From Fictibacillus arsenicus (GTDB lineage Bacteria > Bacillota > Bacilli > Bacillales > Fictibacillaceae), in the NCBI RefSeq assembly GCF_001642935.1, contig NZ_CP016761.1, forward strand, positions 3,968,001-4,032,000: a stretch of 64,000 nt of DNA, written 5' to 3'. Position numbers and translations under genes: made by a program. Each line of letters begins with the position of its first letter. Position 1 is the first letter of the stretch. The notes under the pieces were generated by a model. The model worked only from the letters and a program-made list of their open reading frames with translations, ran no database searches and had not been told where the DNA came from. Shown here one piece after another: positions 5,061-15,944 of the stretch.

Positions 5061-5600
5061 TTACAAAATTTTTTCTAACTGAATATCAAGCGGTTCCCGA
5101 CTTAATATTTTTTCGTTAATTTCAACAGCCCCATCACATCCCATTGCTTTATAAAATCCCTGTGATTCGACGGATGGATGTGCAGCAATATAAAGCTTTC
5201 TTGCCCCTAGTTTCTTTGCTTCTTCACAGCATTTTTCAAATAGTATTTTTCCTATCCCACAGCCTCTTCGTTCTGATGAAATATGAATATAAGGAAGCTC
5301 TGCATATTCGGTTTTTGTCCCGAACAAGCAGCCATCTATATTTGCAAAACCAGCTAAACCAGATACGTCAAAAGCTCCTATTGCCCTGCCCCCTTGATCT
5401 ATACAAATGCGCAGATCATGAATGACTTGAGCTTTTTTGTTATCATCCCAGTCGTCAATAAAATGATCGTACTTCAATTTATATTGATGATTTTCCATAT
5501 ACAAAACTTGATTGGTTACTTGATAACGATTGAACTCACTTAAAAATGTATCATGTAAGTCATTTAAACTTAAAACCTTACAGATAATCGTGTTTTTCAT
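5061..5600 (-). CDS. GNAT-family N-acetyltransferase
   Basis: 179 residues. The C-terminal half has the acetyl-CoA-binding GNAT core: YIHISSERRGCGIGKILFE (motif A with the R/Q-x-x-G-x-G/A loop), then ARKLYIAAHPSVESQGFYKAMG (motif B). Transfers an acetyl group to an unknown amine. RBS AGGGGATC precedes the ATG. The start lies 15 nt after the stop of the upstream MutS2-like gene, so the two are probably co-transcribed. Substrate cannot be assigned. Confidence 0.85.
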   Translation of the reverse strand: MKNTIICKVLSLNDLHDTFLSEFNRYQVTNQVLYMENHQYKLKYDHFIDDWDDNKKAQVIHDLRICIDQGGRAIGAFDVSGLAGFANIDGCLFGTKTEYAELPYIHISSERRGCGIGKILFEKCCEEAKKLGARKLYIAAHPSVESQGFYKAMGCDGAVEINEKILSREPLDIQLEKIL

Positions 5601-5615
5601 GCATGATCCCCTGCT

Positions 5616-7571
5616 TTAGCTGTTCTCTCTTTCTATCGTCATTCCATCTATGTGACGCTTGTTCATCAGTTTATCTTTTTTTCGATTCTCTTTTGTTTCA
5701 AACACAATATCCATATCATAGTCCTCAGGATATAGCATCTCACTTCGAATATGAAGAATTAAGCGTTTTTTGTGAATGTGATGCTTGGTTTCCCCGGCAA
5801 GTACTCCATACTCTCCTTTTGAATTCTCTAACTCACAAATGATTCCTGCAGTTTTTAAACTTGTTACATATACTCGGTCTCCAATTTTGTATGTTTCTTC
5901 TTGTTCGTTTTGAACAGGAATCCGTTTTTCTTGCGGCTTTTTTACTGTGGATTGAGCCTTTTCTCTCGAAATCTGAAGCATTTCATTACTTGCTGTGGAT
6001 AAAGAAATCGAATTTTGTTTATCCACATGTGGATAAACTTCATCGCTGTAGGTGACCTCTTTTGCACGGTTAATAACCTCAGGGACCATTCCTAACTTAC
6101 GCGCTATTGATAGAGCCTGACTTTCACCTGCTTTTCCGATTATCAACCGATAAAGCGGCTGCAATGTTTCTAAATCAAATTCCATAGATCCGTTTTCAAA
6201 GCCTTTTGTTACATTTGCAAACTCTTTGATCTCACTATAGTGAGTGGTTGCTAAAATCATACTTCCCTGACTGTACAGTTTTTCAAGTATCGCTACTGCC
6301 AGGCCCATTCCTTCTGCAGGATCTGTTCCAGCTCCAAGCTCATCGAGTATGACTAAATCTTGAGGTCCCGCTTGATTCATTATTGAAATAATATTTGTTA
6401 TGTGCGAGGAGAAGGTACTTAACGATTGCTCAATACTTTGACCATCACCAATGTCTGCGTAGATCTCGCGAAATACTGCAAATTCGCTTCCTTCACCTAC
6501 GGGAACATGAAGTCCAGATTGAACCATCATTGTTAAAAGACCTACAGTCTTGATTGCAACGGTTTTCCCTCCGGTATTCGGTCCTGTTATTACAAGTGCT
6601 TGATAAGTTTCACCAAGGGTAAAATTTAAAGGTACACATTTTTCTCCCAATAAAGGGTGTTTGCCGTTAAAAATCTTTATTTTATTATCTAAATTTAGCT
6701 CCACATTTGTGGCATCTAAAGACCTGCTGTACTTCGCTTTAGCAAAGATAAAATCATATTGAGCCATACCTTCGATGTTTATTCCAAGTTCACGTTCATA
6801 TCCCGCTACCATACCAGTTAAAATACTTAAAACTTTAGAGATTTCAATCTCCTCTTCTGCTCGCAGCATACTAATCTCTGTTTGAAGCTTGCGGATATCA
6901 TTTGGCTCCATGTAAACTGTAGCACCACTCGATGAACTATCGAGAATCTGTCCATCTATATTTCTTTTGAATTTACTTTTAACCGGAATTACGTAACGGC
7001 CCTCCCTCATAGAAATGATCTGCTCCTGCATCATATCCCGGTAGGCGGCAGATTTTACTATGTTATCAAGCTTTGATTTAATTTTTTCTTCAATAACAGC
7101 AATCTTTTTTCTCGTTTTTAGCAGAGATTTACTGGCATGATCATCTACTCTTCCATTTCGAATGCACCGGTATATCTCCTCCTGTACATCTGGAAGATCA
7201 AACATAGAGTACGCATAACTCGACACAGCAGGTGCTAAAAATTGTTTATCCTTCATGAACCGCTGTATTCGGCTGACATTATCAAGAAGACCATAAACTA
7301 GTGTCAGCTGTTCAGGTGACAGGTTTAATCCTTTTTTCGGAATCTCAAGTATGTGCTCTAGTCCATTCAAGTTTGCTATTGGAACACTTGCACTTTTTTC
7401 TAATATAAGTCTGGCCTCTGTTGTGTCCACCATCCAGGATTGAATGATGGAGAGGTTTGTGGACGGTTCTAACGTTTCGATCACTTGTTTTGTTACAGCA
7501 TTAACTGCATAACCGCCTAGAATTTCTTTGATTTTTTTATATTCAAGCATGTTTATTGTTTGTGTATTCAA
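5616..7571 (-). CDS. MutS2-like ABC ATPase lacking the C-terminal Smr domain
   Basis: About 651 residues, shorter than MutS2 (near 785 in B. subtilis). Core and lever segments are followed by the MutS-family ATPase: Walker A GPNTGGKT, Walker B LVILDELGAGTDP and the following TTHYSEIK. After the ATPase there is only a charged tail with no Smr nuclease domain. The preferred start is TTG at 7571, 8 nt after GGAGG; a TTG at 7586 lies upstream of that RBS. MutS2 proteins are linked to recombination control and, in B. subtilis, to rescue of collided ribosomes; which applies here is unknown. Preceded by an elaborate leader (7677-7955). Confidence 0.88.
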   Translation of the reverse strand: MNTQTINMLEYKKIKEILGGYAVNAVTKQVIETLEPSTNLSIIQSWMVDTTEARLILEKSASVPIANLNGLEHILEIPKKGLNLSPEQLTLVYGLLDNVSRIQRFMKDKQFLAPAVSSYAYSMFDLPDVQEEIYRCIRNGRVDDHASKSLLKTRKKIAVIEEKIKSKLDNIVKSAAYRDMMQEQIISMREGRYVIPVKSKFKRNIDGQILDSSSSGATVYMEPNDIRKLQTEISMLRAEEEIEISKVLSILTGMVAGYERELGINIEGMAQYDFIFAKAKYSRSLDATNVELNLDNKIKIFNGKHPLLGEKCVPLNFTLGETYQALVITGPNTGGKTVAIKTVGLLTMMVQSGLHVPVGEGSEFAVFREIYADIGDGQSIEQSLSTFSSHITNIISIMNQAGPQDLVILDELGAGTDPAEGMGLAVAILEKLYSQGSMILATTHYSEIKEFANVTKGFENGSMEFDLETLQPLYRLIIGKAGESQALSIARKLGMVPEVINRAKEVTYSDEVYPHVDKQNSISLSTASNEMLQISREKAQSTVKKPQEKRIPVQNEQEETYKIGDRVYVTSLKTAGIICELENSKGEYGVLAGETKHHIHKKRLILHIRSEMLYPEDYDMDIVFETKENRKKDKLMNKRHIDGMTIERENS

Positions 7572-7676
7572 TGGAACTGCCTCCAATTTTTTTAGGATAA
7601 AAATTTCTTAAAATATACATTCATCTGTTTGAGCGAAAATCCCCTCCCCTAAAACAGAGGCCAGGAACATGCCAAA

Positions 7677-7731
7677 TAAAAAAAGACAGAAATGAACATG
7701 TCATTTCTGCCTCATAGATAGACTTCACCCT
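7677..7731 (-). promoter_or_regulatory. Second leader unit: short ORF overlapping a terminator
   Basis: On the minus strand AGGGTG is followed by a 5-codon ORF (7715-7701, M-R-Q-K-stop). Its stop codon lies in the 5' arm of a 9-bp hairpin CAGAAATGA/TCATTTCTG (7687-7695 with 7701-7709), followed by TCTTTTTTT. It repeats the plan of the upstream unit and lies between it and the MutS2-like gene. The terminator is clear; the peptide is inference. Confidence 0.55.
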
Positions 7732-7743
7732 GAAAAAATGCAC

Positions 7744-7955
7744 AAAAAAAATCGGCTCTTAAGAAGAGTCCGGCAGCATCAAGGATTTGCATATGATGGC
7801 TTGTATCTGACCGCTGTTCTTAACTAATGGCGGCAACAAAAGAGCATAACTAAATAAACGTAAAAAACGTTTAGATTTTCTTTCGCTTGCCTTTATCCAA
7901 ATTGTTTTAGTTAAGAACGCTCACGCTCACAAACACACCATCCTTTCCATTGATT
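7744..7955 (-). ncRNA. Structured leader or small RNA with short ORF and intrinsic terminator
   Basis: Predicted transcript starts near 7955. AAAGGATGG then GTG opens a 7-codon ORF (7930-7907, V-S-V-S-V-L-N). Its last codons GTTCTTAACTAA (7918-7907) are exactly complementary to TTAGTTAAGAAC at 7827-7816 (12 bp). Inside are GGCAA/TTGCC, CGAAAGA/TCTTTTG and AAACGT/ACGTTT stems. A second domain pairs CGG-U-CAG with CUGCCG. It ends in the hairpin 7754-7771 and eight T. The 3' arm can alternatively pair over 7 nt (TTAAGAA) with TTCTTAA in the terminator (7765-7759), giving a possible ribosome-sensing attenuator. It could instead be an independent sRNA. No match to a riboswitch class I recognise. 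Confidence 0.6.
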
Positions 7956-7961
7956 ACCCCT

Positions 7962-7991
7962 ATTATATGTAATTAATTTACAAAATGTCAA
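7962..7991 (-). promoter_or_regulatory. Consensus sigma-A promoter of the leader/sRNA
   Basis: TTGACA (7986-7991) and TATAAT (7962-7967), both perfect, separated by 18 bp on the minus strand, directly after the rlmN terminator. Confidence 0.85.
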
Positions 7992-8028: not shown

Positions 8029-9108
8029 TTATCGGCTGACTATATCGCCTTTTTCTTTCCTAATCTGCTTGCTTCTTAACTGTCCGCATGCAGCATCAAT
8101 GTCCGTGCCGTGCTCTTGGCGGATTTTACAGTTGATTCCGTTCTTTTTGAGTGTGTCATAGAAAGCTAAAACGGATTCTTGTGCACTTCGCTGATATTGA
8201 CTGTGCTCATCAACCGGGTTATATGGGATAAGGTTAATATAAACTTTTTTCTTTTTATCATGAAAAAGTGCTGCAAGTTCATTTGCTTCTTCTATATGAT
8301 CGTTCACATCTTTAAGTAAGATATATTCAATCGTTATACGGCGGTTTGTTTTCTCGATGTAATAATTGATCGAATCCATCAGTTTTTCTAGAGGGTATGC
8401 ACGGTTGATCTTCATGATTTTAGTACGCAGTTCATTGTTTGGTGCATGCAAGGAAATAGCTAAATTAACTGGGATATTTGTATCGGCAAATTCATAGATC
8501 TTGTTGACAATCCCACTAGTTGAAACAGTAATATGTCTGGATCCGATAGCAAGACCTTTTTGATCGATGATAATCTGTAAAAAGTTTACCATGTTCTCAA
8601 AGTTATCGAATGGCTCACCTATTCCCATTACTACGATATGACTTACTTTCTCACCGTTTCCTGCATCATCCAAATGATGCTGAACATTCATGATTTGTTC
8701 CACGATTTCACCACTGGTCAGATCACGAGTTTTCGTTAATAAGCCGCTTGCACAAAAACTGCAGCCAATGTTGCAGCCTACTTGAGTTGTTACACAAACA
8801 GATAGTCCATATTTATGCCTCATCAAAACTGTCTCGATTAAGTTTCCATCTTGAAGTTTAAATAAAAATTTAACCGTACCATCGGATGCTTCTTGTTTAA
8901 CATGATGCGATAACGTATGGATAACAAAATTTTCTTCTAAAAGAGCAGTGCAATCTTTGTTAACCTCTGTCATTTCAGAGAAATCTTTTACTCTCTTTCG
9001 GTAAAGATAATCCCACACTTGTGATGCCCGGTATTGTTTATGCCCATGTTCTAAAAGCCATGCCGCAAGCTGTTCAAATGTTAATCCATATATGGAATTA
9101 GTAATCAT
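8029..9108 (-). CDS. rlmN: RlmN-type 23S rRNA (adenine-C2) methyltransferase, radical SAM
   Basis: 359 residues. The radical-SAM cysteine motif reads [10 protein letters not shown] (CxxxCxxC), followed by [15 protein letters not shown] (SAM-binding GEP region) and, near the C-terminus, DIDAACGQL with the second catalytic cysteine. RlmN methylates A2503 of 23S rRNA and A37 of some tRNAs; Cfr-type relatives methylate C8 and give antibiotic resistance, and I cannot separate the two by eye. The ATG at 9108 has AGAGGT 6 nt upstream; a TTG at 9126 has none. It is not in the usual rsmB-rlmN-prpC setting, so it may be a second copy. Confidence 0.88.
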
Positions 9109-15441: not shown

Positions 15442-15616
15442 AAAAAATAAAAACCTCTTCATGAATAAGAAGAGGTTAATAAAATACGTGAAATGGAAAA
15501 AACGCATTTGATCTCTCCTTATCTATCAAGCTTGTAAGCTTGCTGGAATTGGCACAGTTCTAAAATAGTTGTTGCCGAGGCTTCAAAGGGCCAGTCCCTC
15601 CACCTCTCTCGATAAG
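15442..15616 (-). promoter_or_regulatory. SAM-I (S-box) riboswitch with terminator, upstream of the monooxygenase-metQ operon
   Basis: Minus strand: P1 CTTATC at 15616, then GAGAGGTGGAGGGACTGGCC, GAAGCCTCGGCAACA and GTGCCAATTCCAGCAA, closing with GATAAG near 15518. These are the conserved S-box blocks. The downstream hairpin AACCTCTTC/GAAGAGGTT (15452-15477) with T run is the terminator. High SAM should stop transcription. Confidence 0.95.
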
Positions 15617-15644
15617 AAATCGATAGTATTCAATTTATCAACAG

Positions 15645-15750: not shown

Positions 15751-15779
15751 GATGACAATTAAAATTTATAATCTATTAT

Positions 15780-15944
15780 TCTTATCACGAGTCAGGGGAG
15801 GAACTGGTCCTATGATCCTGCAGCAACCGCTTATCTTTACTAGATAAGAAAGGTGCTAATTCCAGCAGACATGCTATGTCTGAGAGATGAGAAAGAGTTC
15901 TTTAACAACGTCCTCTTTCGTCATTTTGAAAGGAGGATTTTTTT
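15780..15944 (+). promoter_or_regulatory. SAM-I (S-box) riboswitch with terminator, upstream of the dehydrogenase-family gene
   Basis: CTTATCACGAGTCAGGGGAG, AACTGGTCCTATGATCCTGC-AGCAACC, AGGTGCTAATTCCAGCAGAC and GAGATGAG are the S-box blocks. Terminator CCTCTTTC/GAAAGGAGG (15912-15936) with seven T; an upstream GAGAAAGAG can pair with CTCTTTC as antiterminator. Confidence 0.95.

Follow-up and report, generated by a model that had tools for sequence, protein, structure and literature searches.

The window, that is the whole stretch of 64,000 nucleotides analysed here, carried on its minus strand a gene for a MutS2-like protein of 651 aa (5616..7571), which started with TTG behind the Shine-Dalgarno sequence GGAGG (7584-7580) and encoded an ATPase and a KOW-like domain but no Smr domain. 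A GNAT acetyltransferase gene (5061..5600, minus strand; Pfam PF00583) followed. It is probably co-transcribed with the mutS2-like gene and had a counterpart in 16 of 24 loci of the same family, which extended 1.5 kb past the gene. Directly upstream of the leader of the mutS2-like gene lay a second RlmN-family methyltransferase gene (8029-9108, minus strand) with 54% identity to the other copy in the genome (G000:C1:1809768-1810802); it adjoined the leader in 16 of the 24 family loci. Farther away in the window we noticed a divergent pair of SAM riboswitches (RF00162) with some 160 nt between them, at 15516-15618 (minus strand) and 15779-15893 (plus strand).

The leader, which like its gene is read from the minus strand, began with a sigma-A-type promoter (7962..7991) composed of TTGACA (7991-7986), a spacer of 18 nt and TATAAT (7967-7962). 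The first-pass annotation had called this promoter perfect and the leader roughly 385 nt long. Both statements were accurate: the promoter matched the consensus at 12 of 12 positions, and about 385 nt separate the transcription start predicted near 7955 from the TTG at 7571. Promoter-like sites as such were not enriched in the 4 kb scanned (16 against 14.1 expected), and this was the single 12/12 match among them. By eye, other leaders, for example L004, L007 and L021, had a similar promoter pair in the corresponding position. The first short open reading frame, uORF1 (7907..7930, GTG AGC GTG AGC GTT CTT AAC TAA), encodes the seven-codon peptide MSVSVLN*. Codons 5-7 and the stop codon make up GTTCTTAACTAA (7907..7918), the 5' arm of a putative anti-antiterminator which we call P1. 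In agreement with the perfect 12-bp stem described before, all 12 positions pair with the 3' arm TTAGTTAAGAAC (7816..7827). The Shine-Dalgarno region of uORF1, GGAAAGGATGG (7938..7948), was complementary in the predicted fold to a CCATC which follows the 3' arm. The core of this arm and an adjoining AGCGGTC... stretch constitute the candidate antiterminator strand (7780..7824, ends approximate), which can pair with terminator 1. Terminator 1 (7744..7772) is a bulged hairpin (7772-7753) of the form CGGaCTCTT-CTT-AAGAGCCG followed by T8. Farther downstream uORF2 (7701..7715, ATG AGG CAG AAA TGA, MRQK*), four sense codons and a stop behind the Shine-Dalgarno sequence AGGGTGA (7731-7725), ends within the 5' arm of terminator 2 (7676..7713), a hairpin GAGGCAGAAATGACATGTTCATTTCTGTCTT of 13 pairs (7713-7683) with a T tract. 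The predicted fold of the leader RNA was more stable than 200 of 200 shuffles (z -3.85). A simple terminator scan found two sites against 2.5 expected, terminator 2 among them, and missed the bulged terminator 1. The terminators are therefore not proven by composition alone, but conservation does prove them, as described below.

With 611 bits against TIGR01069 (cut-off 400) the protein was clearly a relative of MutS2, as had been said of it before, with MutS2 core and ATPase. The best stretch covered positions 2-514 of 790 of that model, and a second stretch, given without a position, was also counted. An identity as KamC (NF052383) was rejected at 193 bits, below the cut-off of 300. A Pfam scan of the protein returned MutS domain V only and no Smr domain, the chain ending a little beyond the KOW-like domain. 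Built from 56 homologues, an AlphaFold model (mean pLDDT 83.8, pTM 0.70) predicted a MutS2 core, a five-stranded stretch (566-608) at the place of the KOW domain of MutS2 and a final helix. Its best PDB matches were MutS2 structures, including 9kce and 7qv3, the collided-disome complex of B. subtilis. The P-loop GPNTGGKT was identical in 56 of 56 sequences. Elsewhere the same genome encodes a full-length MutS2 (open frame of 798 aa) as well as MutS. In a tree of 41 proteins a branch of its own set apart each of three groups: class A, the Smr-less group of the window, with 23 rows (support only 69/96); class B, a further Smr-less group with 8 rows; and the 9 rows of canonical MutS2. The two classes were set by score gaps: a protein search of 299 genomes of the order gave 93 class A proteins with at least 530 bits and 28 class B proteins with 460-493 bits, and canonical MutS2 stayed below 430 bits among the matches listed. 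A tail motif LY[PE]xxYD was present in 31 of 31 rows of classes A and B and in none of the 9 canonical rows. Four of the 93 class A frames had a stop within the aligned stretch. Broken class A frames were also seen at L111 and L125, where the leader still has uORF1.

A search of the family covered 34 genomes, 24 of them with a class A gene, and in all 24 the upstream frame was exactly seven codons long, encoding MSV[S/V/I/H/C]VLN* or MLL[R/G]VLN*. Thus a short frame with conserved start and length was found together with a visible ribosome-binding site. A pattern made from the leader only (GTTCTTAACTAA, 76-106 nt, GTTAAGAAC), which used no protein information, had matches in 73 of the 299 genomes, spread over 25 of the 116 genera of the order sample, while a reversed control pattern gave no match in the same 299 genomes. 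All 30 loci kept from this search had a seven-codon uORF and a MutS2-like frame downstream. When the genes were chosen by their protein instead, 70 of the 93 class A genes stood behind the exact pattern, and 22 of the other 23 had a seven-codon uORF but an altered P1 region or spacing. The exception, in genome G222, is a nine-codon frame whose altered arm by eye matches an altered 3' strand, followed by the usual terminators. A recount with one locus per genome over the 299 genomes accordingly placed a seven-codon uORF ending in [VIA][LI][ND]-stop before 92 of 93 class A genes, whereas a Shine-Dalgarno-preceded seven-codon frame was present in none of the 12 upstream regions of canonical mutS2 examined. 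Three further pattern-positive genomes had broken class A frames (G043, G149) or a BpsA gene (G040).

The last 12 nt of uORF1 in the 92 leaders chosen by protein were GTTCTTAACTAA in 86 cases, ATTCTTAACTAA in five and GTTCTTGACTAA in one, and each of the six departures alters an amino acid. Because codons 5-7 showed no synonymous change among these 92 leaders, the nucleotides themselves seem to be held; codons 2-4 are variable. The corresponding counts were 193, 5 and 2, the last with TAG, when the set was enlarged to 200 leaders, of which 172 were distinct; this set is biased because many were fetched with the pattern itself. A motif AATT(GG/TC/CC)ATA was located about 1-9 nt past the stop codon of uORF1 in 66 of 121 less redundant leaders, and by eye it is often the loop of a small hairpin. 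The viral contigs scanned for the leader contained no match. A phylum-wide sample searched with a slightly looser pattern gave 7 matches in 398 genomes, one of the seven outside the class, which shows only that the leader pattern is rare outside Bacilli.

The pairings were compared in these 121 less redundant leaders, 105 of the mutS2 type and 16 of the BpsA type. The end of the uORF lay in an arm of P1 throughout: the best P1 score (G-T counted as half) was 9-12 of 12 in 121 of 121 leaders with a mean of 10.8, as against a mean of 8.2 in shuffled regions that kept base composition only, 17 of 121 of which reached 9. The GTTAAGAAC core of the 3' arm was invariant in an alignment of the 24 family members, and since P1 hardly varies it offered little co-variation. 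P1 is probably longer than 12 pairs, because the stretch from the Shine-Dalgarno sequence to codon 4 paired better with the 40 nt after its own 3' arm (-15.6) than with those of other leaders (-13.1); the values for a control region were -9.7 and -10.5. At least two terminators were found in 97 of 105 mutS2-type and 12 of 16 BpsA-type leaders but in 0 of 61 shuffles. The second terminator, found in 109 of the 121 leaders, contained TGTTC in 76 of the 109, a word for which GAACA in the 3' strand of P1 is a possible partner. A usual terminator 1 was not found in a clade represented by L024-L026.

That the region of the P1 3' arm can pair alternatively with the terminator, as first proposed for the window, was borne out by co-variation in most leaders with a recognisable motif. 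In counts that ignore phylogeny, antiterminator strands of the CGG type went together with terminator 1 arms of the CCG type in 37 of 43 leaders, and those of the CATAGC type with GCT[AG]TG arms in 23 of 31 and with CCG in 2; 47 of the 121 leaders had neither antiterminator motif. A cruder first table had given GCTGTG arms to 7 of 22 CGGAT-type strands because CCGTGCTGTG arms contain both words, and in the refined count CCG was given precedence. Swapping of partners between leaders made a modest difference (own -9.21, swapped -8.05 kcal/mol), partly because the partners are alike, and the own partner was among the best 10% in 29 of 121 leaders, compared to 17 of 121 for a control stretch. The covariance analysis of homologues that the first-pass annotation had suggested thus supports the mutually exclusive pairing of antiterminator and terminator 1 and adds little for P1.

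The second short frame fared differently. It is present in the window and ends where it had been said to end, but ATG AGG C[AG]G AAA TGA was found in 15 of the 24 family members, all from the genus of the window. Among 104 leaders with a usable second terminator, nine had a Shine-Dalgarno-preceded frame ending in the 5' arm of that terminator, five of them uORF2 itself, and the same was true of 14 of 520 shuffles that kept base composition only. Therefore uORF2 was rejected as a general part of the leader. The conservation of the short frames, which had been named as a test of the attenuator idea, holds for uORF1 and is confined to one genus for uORF2.

A sister leader precedes the class B genes. 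All 28 had a Shine-Dalgarno-preceded uORF of seven codons and of other sequence, with peptides such as MSGVVSK, MSAVGSK and MSGVGIN; shuffled upstream regions contained a mean of 0.09 such frames per region. At least one terminator followed the uORF in 28 of 28 loci, compared to 3 of 28 shuffles, base composition being all that was kept in both controls. In 26 of the 28 the class B uORF was predicted to pair (-7 kcal/mol or better) with a central strand that lies about 105-124 nt further on, and a further GTAGGT copy lay near the gene in 12 of 28. Because two unlike peptides share the same length, the comparison suggests that the leader reads the dwell of one ribosome rather than a particular arrest peptide.

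Not only mutS2-like genes were found behind the leader. Many bacteria of soil type carry the leader. A genome-wide scan gave at least 118 loci, among them loci of Bacillus, Neobacillus, Paenibacillus, Brevibacillus and Clostridia. Among the loci listed a MutS2-like gene was downstream in 87 and a BpsA-like gene in 15; of the other 16, 11 end at the edge of the locus, 3 were matches on the reverse strand only, and the last two were L162 and L185. L162 has a GNAT gene after a six-codon frame. L185 (2716-5146, from a Clostridiales MAG) has a leader of the VLN type followed by genes for a SAM methyltransferase and a TetA(P)-like MFS pump, the latter with 440 bits below the cut-off of 750 for the tetracycline-efflux family. 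The BpsA identity was based on PF01861, with 142-150 bits in the four proteins scanned. Of the 16 BpsA loci, some of them cut short, at least 2 had a SpeD gene next; in one of the loci, L187 (2555-4075), the order was leader, BpsA gene, SpeD gene and a gene for an RsgA-like GTPase. Genome G206 possessed a second copy of the leader (L109 / L287), whose frame encodes MKVVVLN* from a TTG start codon. Behind this copy lay a GNAT gene (34.5 bits with PF13527, cut-off 25) and a frame that matched a kinase below threshold. Two leaders per genome were seen in Paenibacillus senegalensis and in an uncultured Brevibacillus, one ahead of a mutS2-type gene and the other ahead of bpsA. In family f48, which is probably Paenibacillaceae judging by the resemblance of its leaders to those of Paenibacillus, the pattern occurred in 85 of 245 genomes, and the 30 loci kept had a MutS2-like gene (25), a BpsA gene (3) or neither (2) downstream of the matched strand. 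A ZMP-ZTP riboswitch was seen near a class A leader of Petroclostridium (L204:2996-3078, plus strand). No description of the leader, of its peptides or of attenuation at a mutS2 or bpsA gene was found in a literature search which judged papers by title, beginning of the abstract and term counts, with many subscription papers and all preprints outside its reach.

Comparison among homologues establishes uORF1, P1, the co-variation of the antiterminator, the tandem terminators and the association with the gene as features of the sequence. We consider it very likely that together they form a ribosome-controlled transcription attenuator ahead of a Smr-less MutS2 paralogue; the occurrence of uORF1 before class A but not canonical genes and of the tandem terminators in leaders but not shuffles has strengthened this logic since it was first suggested for the window. 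While RNA polymerase makes the leader, a ribosome would translate uORF1. If it finishes and leaves, or if none ever loads, the end of uORF1 would pair with the strand about 80 nt downstream, so that P1 holds the adjoining antiterminator strand and transcription would stop at terminator 1, backed by terminator 2. A ribosome dwelling on uORF1, for example on the last codons or the stop codon because of a drug or another fault, would cover the 5' arm of P1. The freed strand could then pair with the 5' arm of terminator 1, and the polymerase would read into the gene. If the Smr-less paralogue splits drug-stalled ribosomes it would in this way turn off its own leader. Outside the genus that has uORF2, this model does not account for read-through of terminator 2.

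Judging by known ribosome footprints, only one ribosome would fit on a frame of seven codons, so what the leader reports would be a stalled ribosome rather than a collision. We infer that ribosome stalling is the signal, and translation inhibitors are reasonably likely to be its natural inducers. For the BpsA genes a connection to antibiotics is not obvious, which counts against this drug-stall reading. The first-pass annotation had supposed that translation stress could induce its own sensor. The word sensor fits poorly because the collision-recruiting Smr domain is missing, though the splitting ATPase and the KOW-like domain are kept. According to PMC10897456, Smr and KOW promote the binding of B. 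subtilis MutS2 to collided ribosomes. Mutants in either domain, including a deletion of Smr, partly retained activity and showed a very modest sensitivity to erythromycin, and a Walker B mutant was like a knockout. In the light of these results a Smr-less MutS2 with ATPase and KOW would be a sensible splitter of stalled ribosomes, and we are slightly inclined to believe that the protein of the window acts as one.

Other explanations of the leader have to be weighed against ribosome-controlled attenuation. The nearly fixed GTT CTT AAC of the class A leaders would suit an amino-acid attenuator of the trp type which senses a shortage of Val, Leu or Asn tRNA, but there is no run of a single codon, the genes seen downstream are not biosynthetic for these amino acids, and the codons of class B are different. 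On this last ground trp-type attenuation was rejected; it is the least credible of the alternatives. Nor is it at all likely that the leader is a riboswitch which binds a ligand and contains the short frame only by chance. The motif after the stop codon could be a binding loop, but the Shine-Dalgarno sequence, the start and the length of seven codons are kept though codons 2-4 vary. Known riboswitches were rejected since no Rfam leader family matched at gathering score in the window or in 19 loci. The strength of both hairpins in many leaders might also be thought to indicate that the two terminators are constitutive and do no more than insulate the gene or set free a small RNA; a very improbable explanation in our view, as it leaves uORF1, P1 and the co-varying antiterminator without a purpose.

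More attention is due to the idea that the leader senses the state of termination or of polyamines rather than drugs, with a low polyamine level slowing release at the seventh codon, so that one leader would drive polyamine synthesis (BpsA, sometimes SpeD) together with a ribosome rescue factor. This agrees with the BpsA genes behind 15 of the at least 118 loci and 3 of 30 loci in family f48, with SpeD next to some of them and with a stop codon that was TAA or TAG in 228 of 228 leaders (the 200 of the larger set and the 28 of class B). It agrees less well with the mutS2-type genes behind most leaders and with the single leader copies before GNAT genes and before the pair of methyltransferase and TetA(P)-like pump. 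We also know of no branched polyamine production in these bacilli, which we count against it. Such sensing of termination or of polyamines appears unlikely, if less so than the other alternatives.

Ribosome-controlled attenuation could be extended to a hitherto undescribed translation-stall regulon of Bacillota in which one seven-codon dwell detector without a specific arrest peptide controls several remedies. We put this forward tentatively. The remedies would be a Smr-less MutS2 for splitting single stalled ribosomes rather than collided ones, polyamine synthesis, drug efflux and acetylation, and each would relieve the stall that induced it; polyamine synthesis would then be tied to ribosome stalling through one leader. 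If these readings are correct, 93 of the 299 genomes sampled from the order, or roughly one in three, possess an undescribed inducible factor for ribosome rescue or drug tolerance, which profile-based annotation would label endonuclease MutS2. Such a factor would reveal which parts of MutS2 are sufficient once collision sensing is dropped, and it would be the second splitting factor, after HflXr, under attenuator control.

The known systems to which the locus can be compared each share a part of it. The modelled protein resembles canonical MutS2 of B. subtilis in its core/lever, clamp, Walker ATPase and KOW-like domain, but it has no Smr domain, and the canonical genes examined have no leader of this kind. 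The second type of gene behind the leader shares the BpsA_C domain with BpsA, which PMC12979288 describes as an enzyme of thermophiles, whereas here it is a putative enzyme found also, for example, in Paenibacillus and Brevibacillus. The vmlR leader of B. subtilis, as described in PMC9226507, is induced by lincomycin and likewise combines a short uORF in an anti-antiterminator hairpin, an antiterminator and an intrinsic terminator ahead of a gene whose product protects translation. Its uORF variants MIN, MDN, MDK and MRK end in N or K, as do most leaders here. It differs in having three codons instead of seven, one terminator instead of two and an ABC-F protein instead of a MutS2-like one. Listeria hflXr (lmo0762/rli80), as described in PMC6310831, encodes an HflX protein instead of a MutS-type ATPase under a 14-aa peptide with an RLR motif, a motif absent from the peptides listed here. 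HflXr is thought to split drug-stalled ribosomes, and hflXr, as perhaps the mutS2-like gene too, is a uORF-attenuated paralogue of a splitting factor that serves in resistance, the other copy being elsewhere in the genome. The protein of the window has kept its ATPase residues and can be regarded as a putative factor of the HflXr type for ribosome splitting and drug tolerance.
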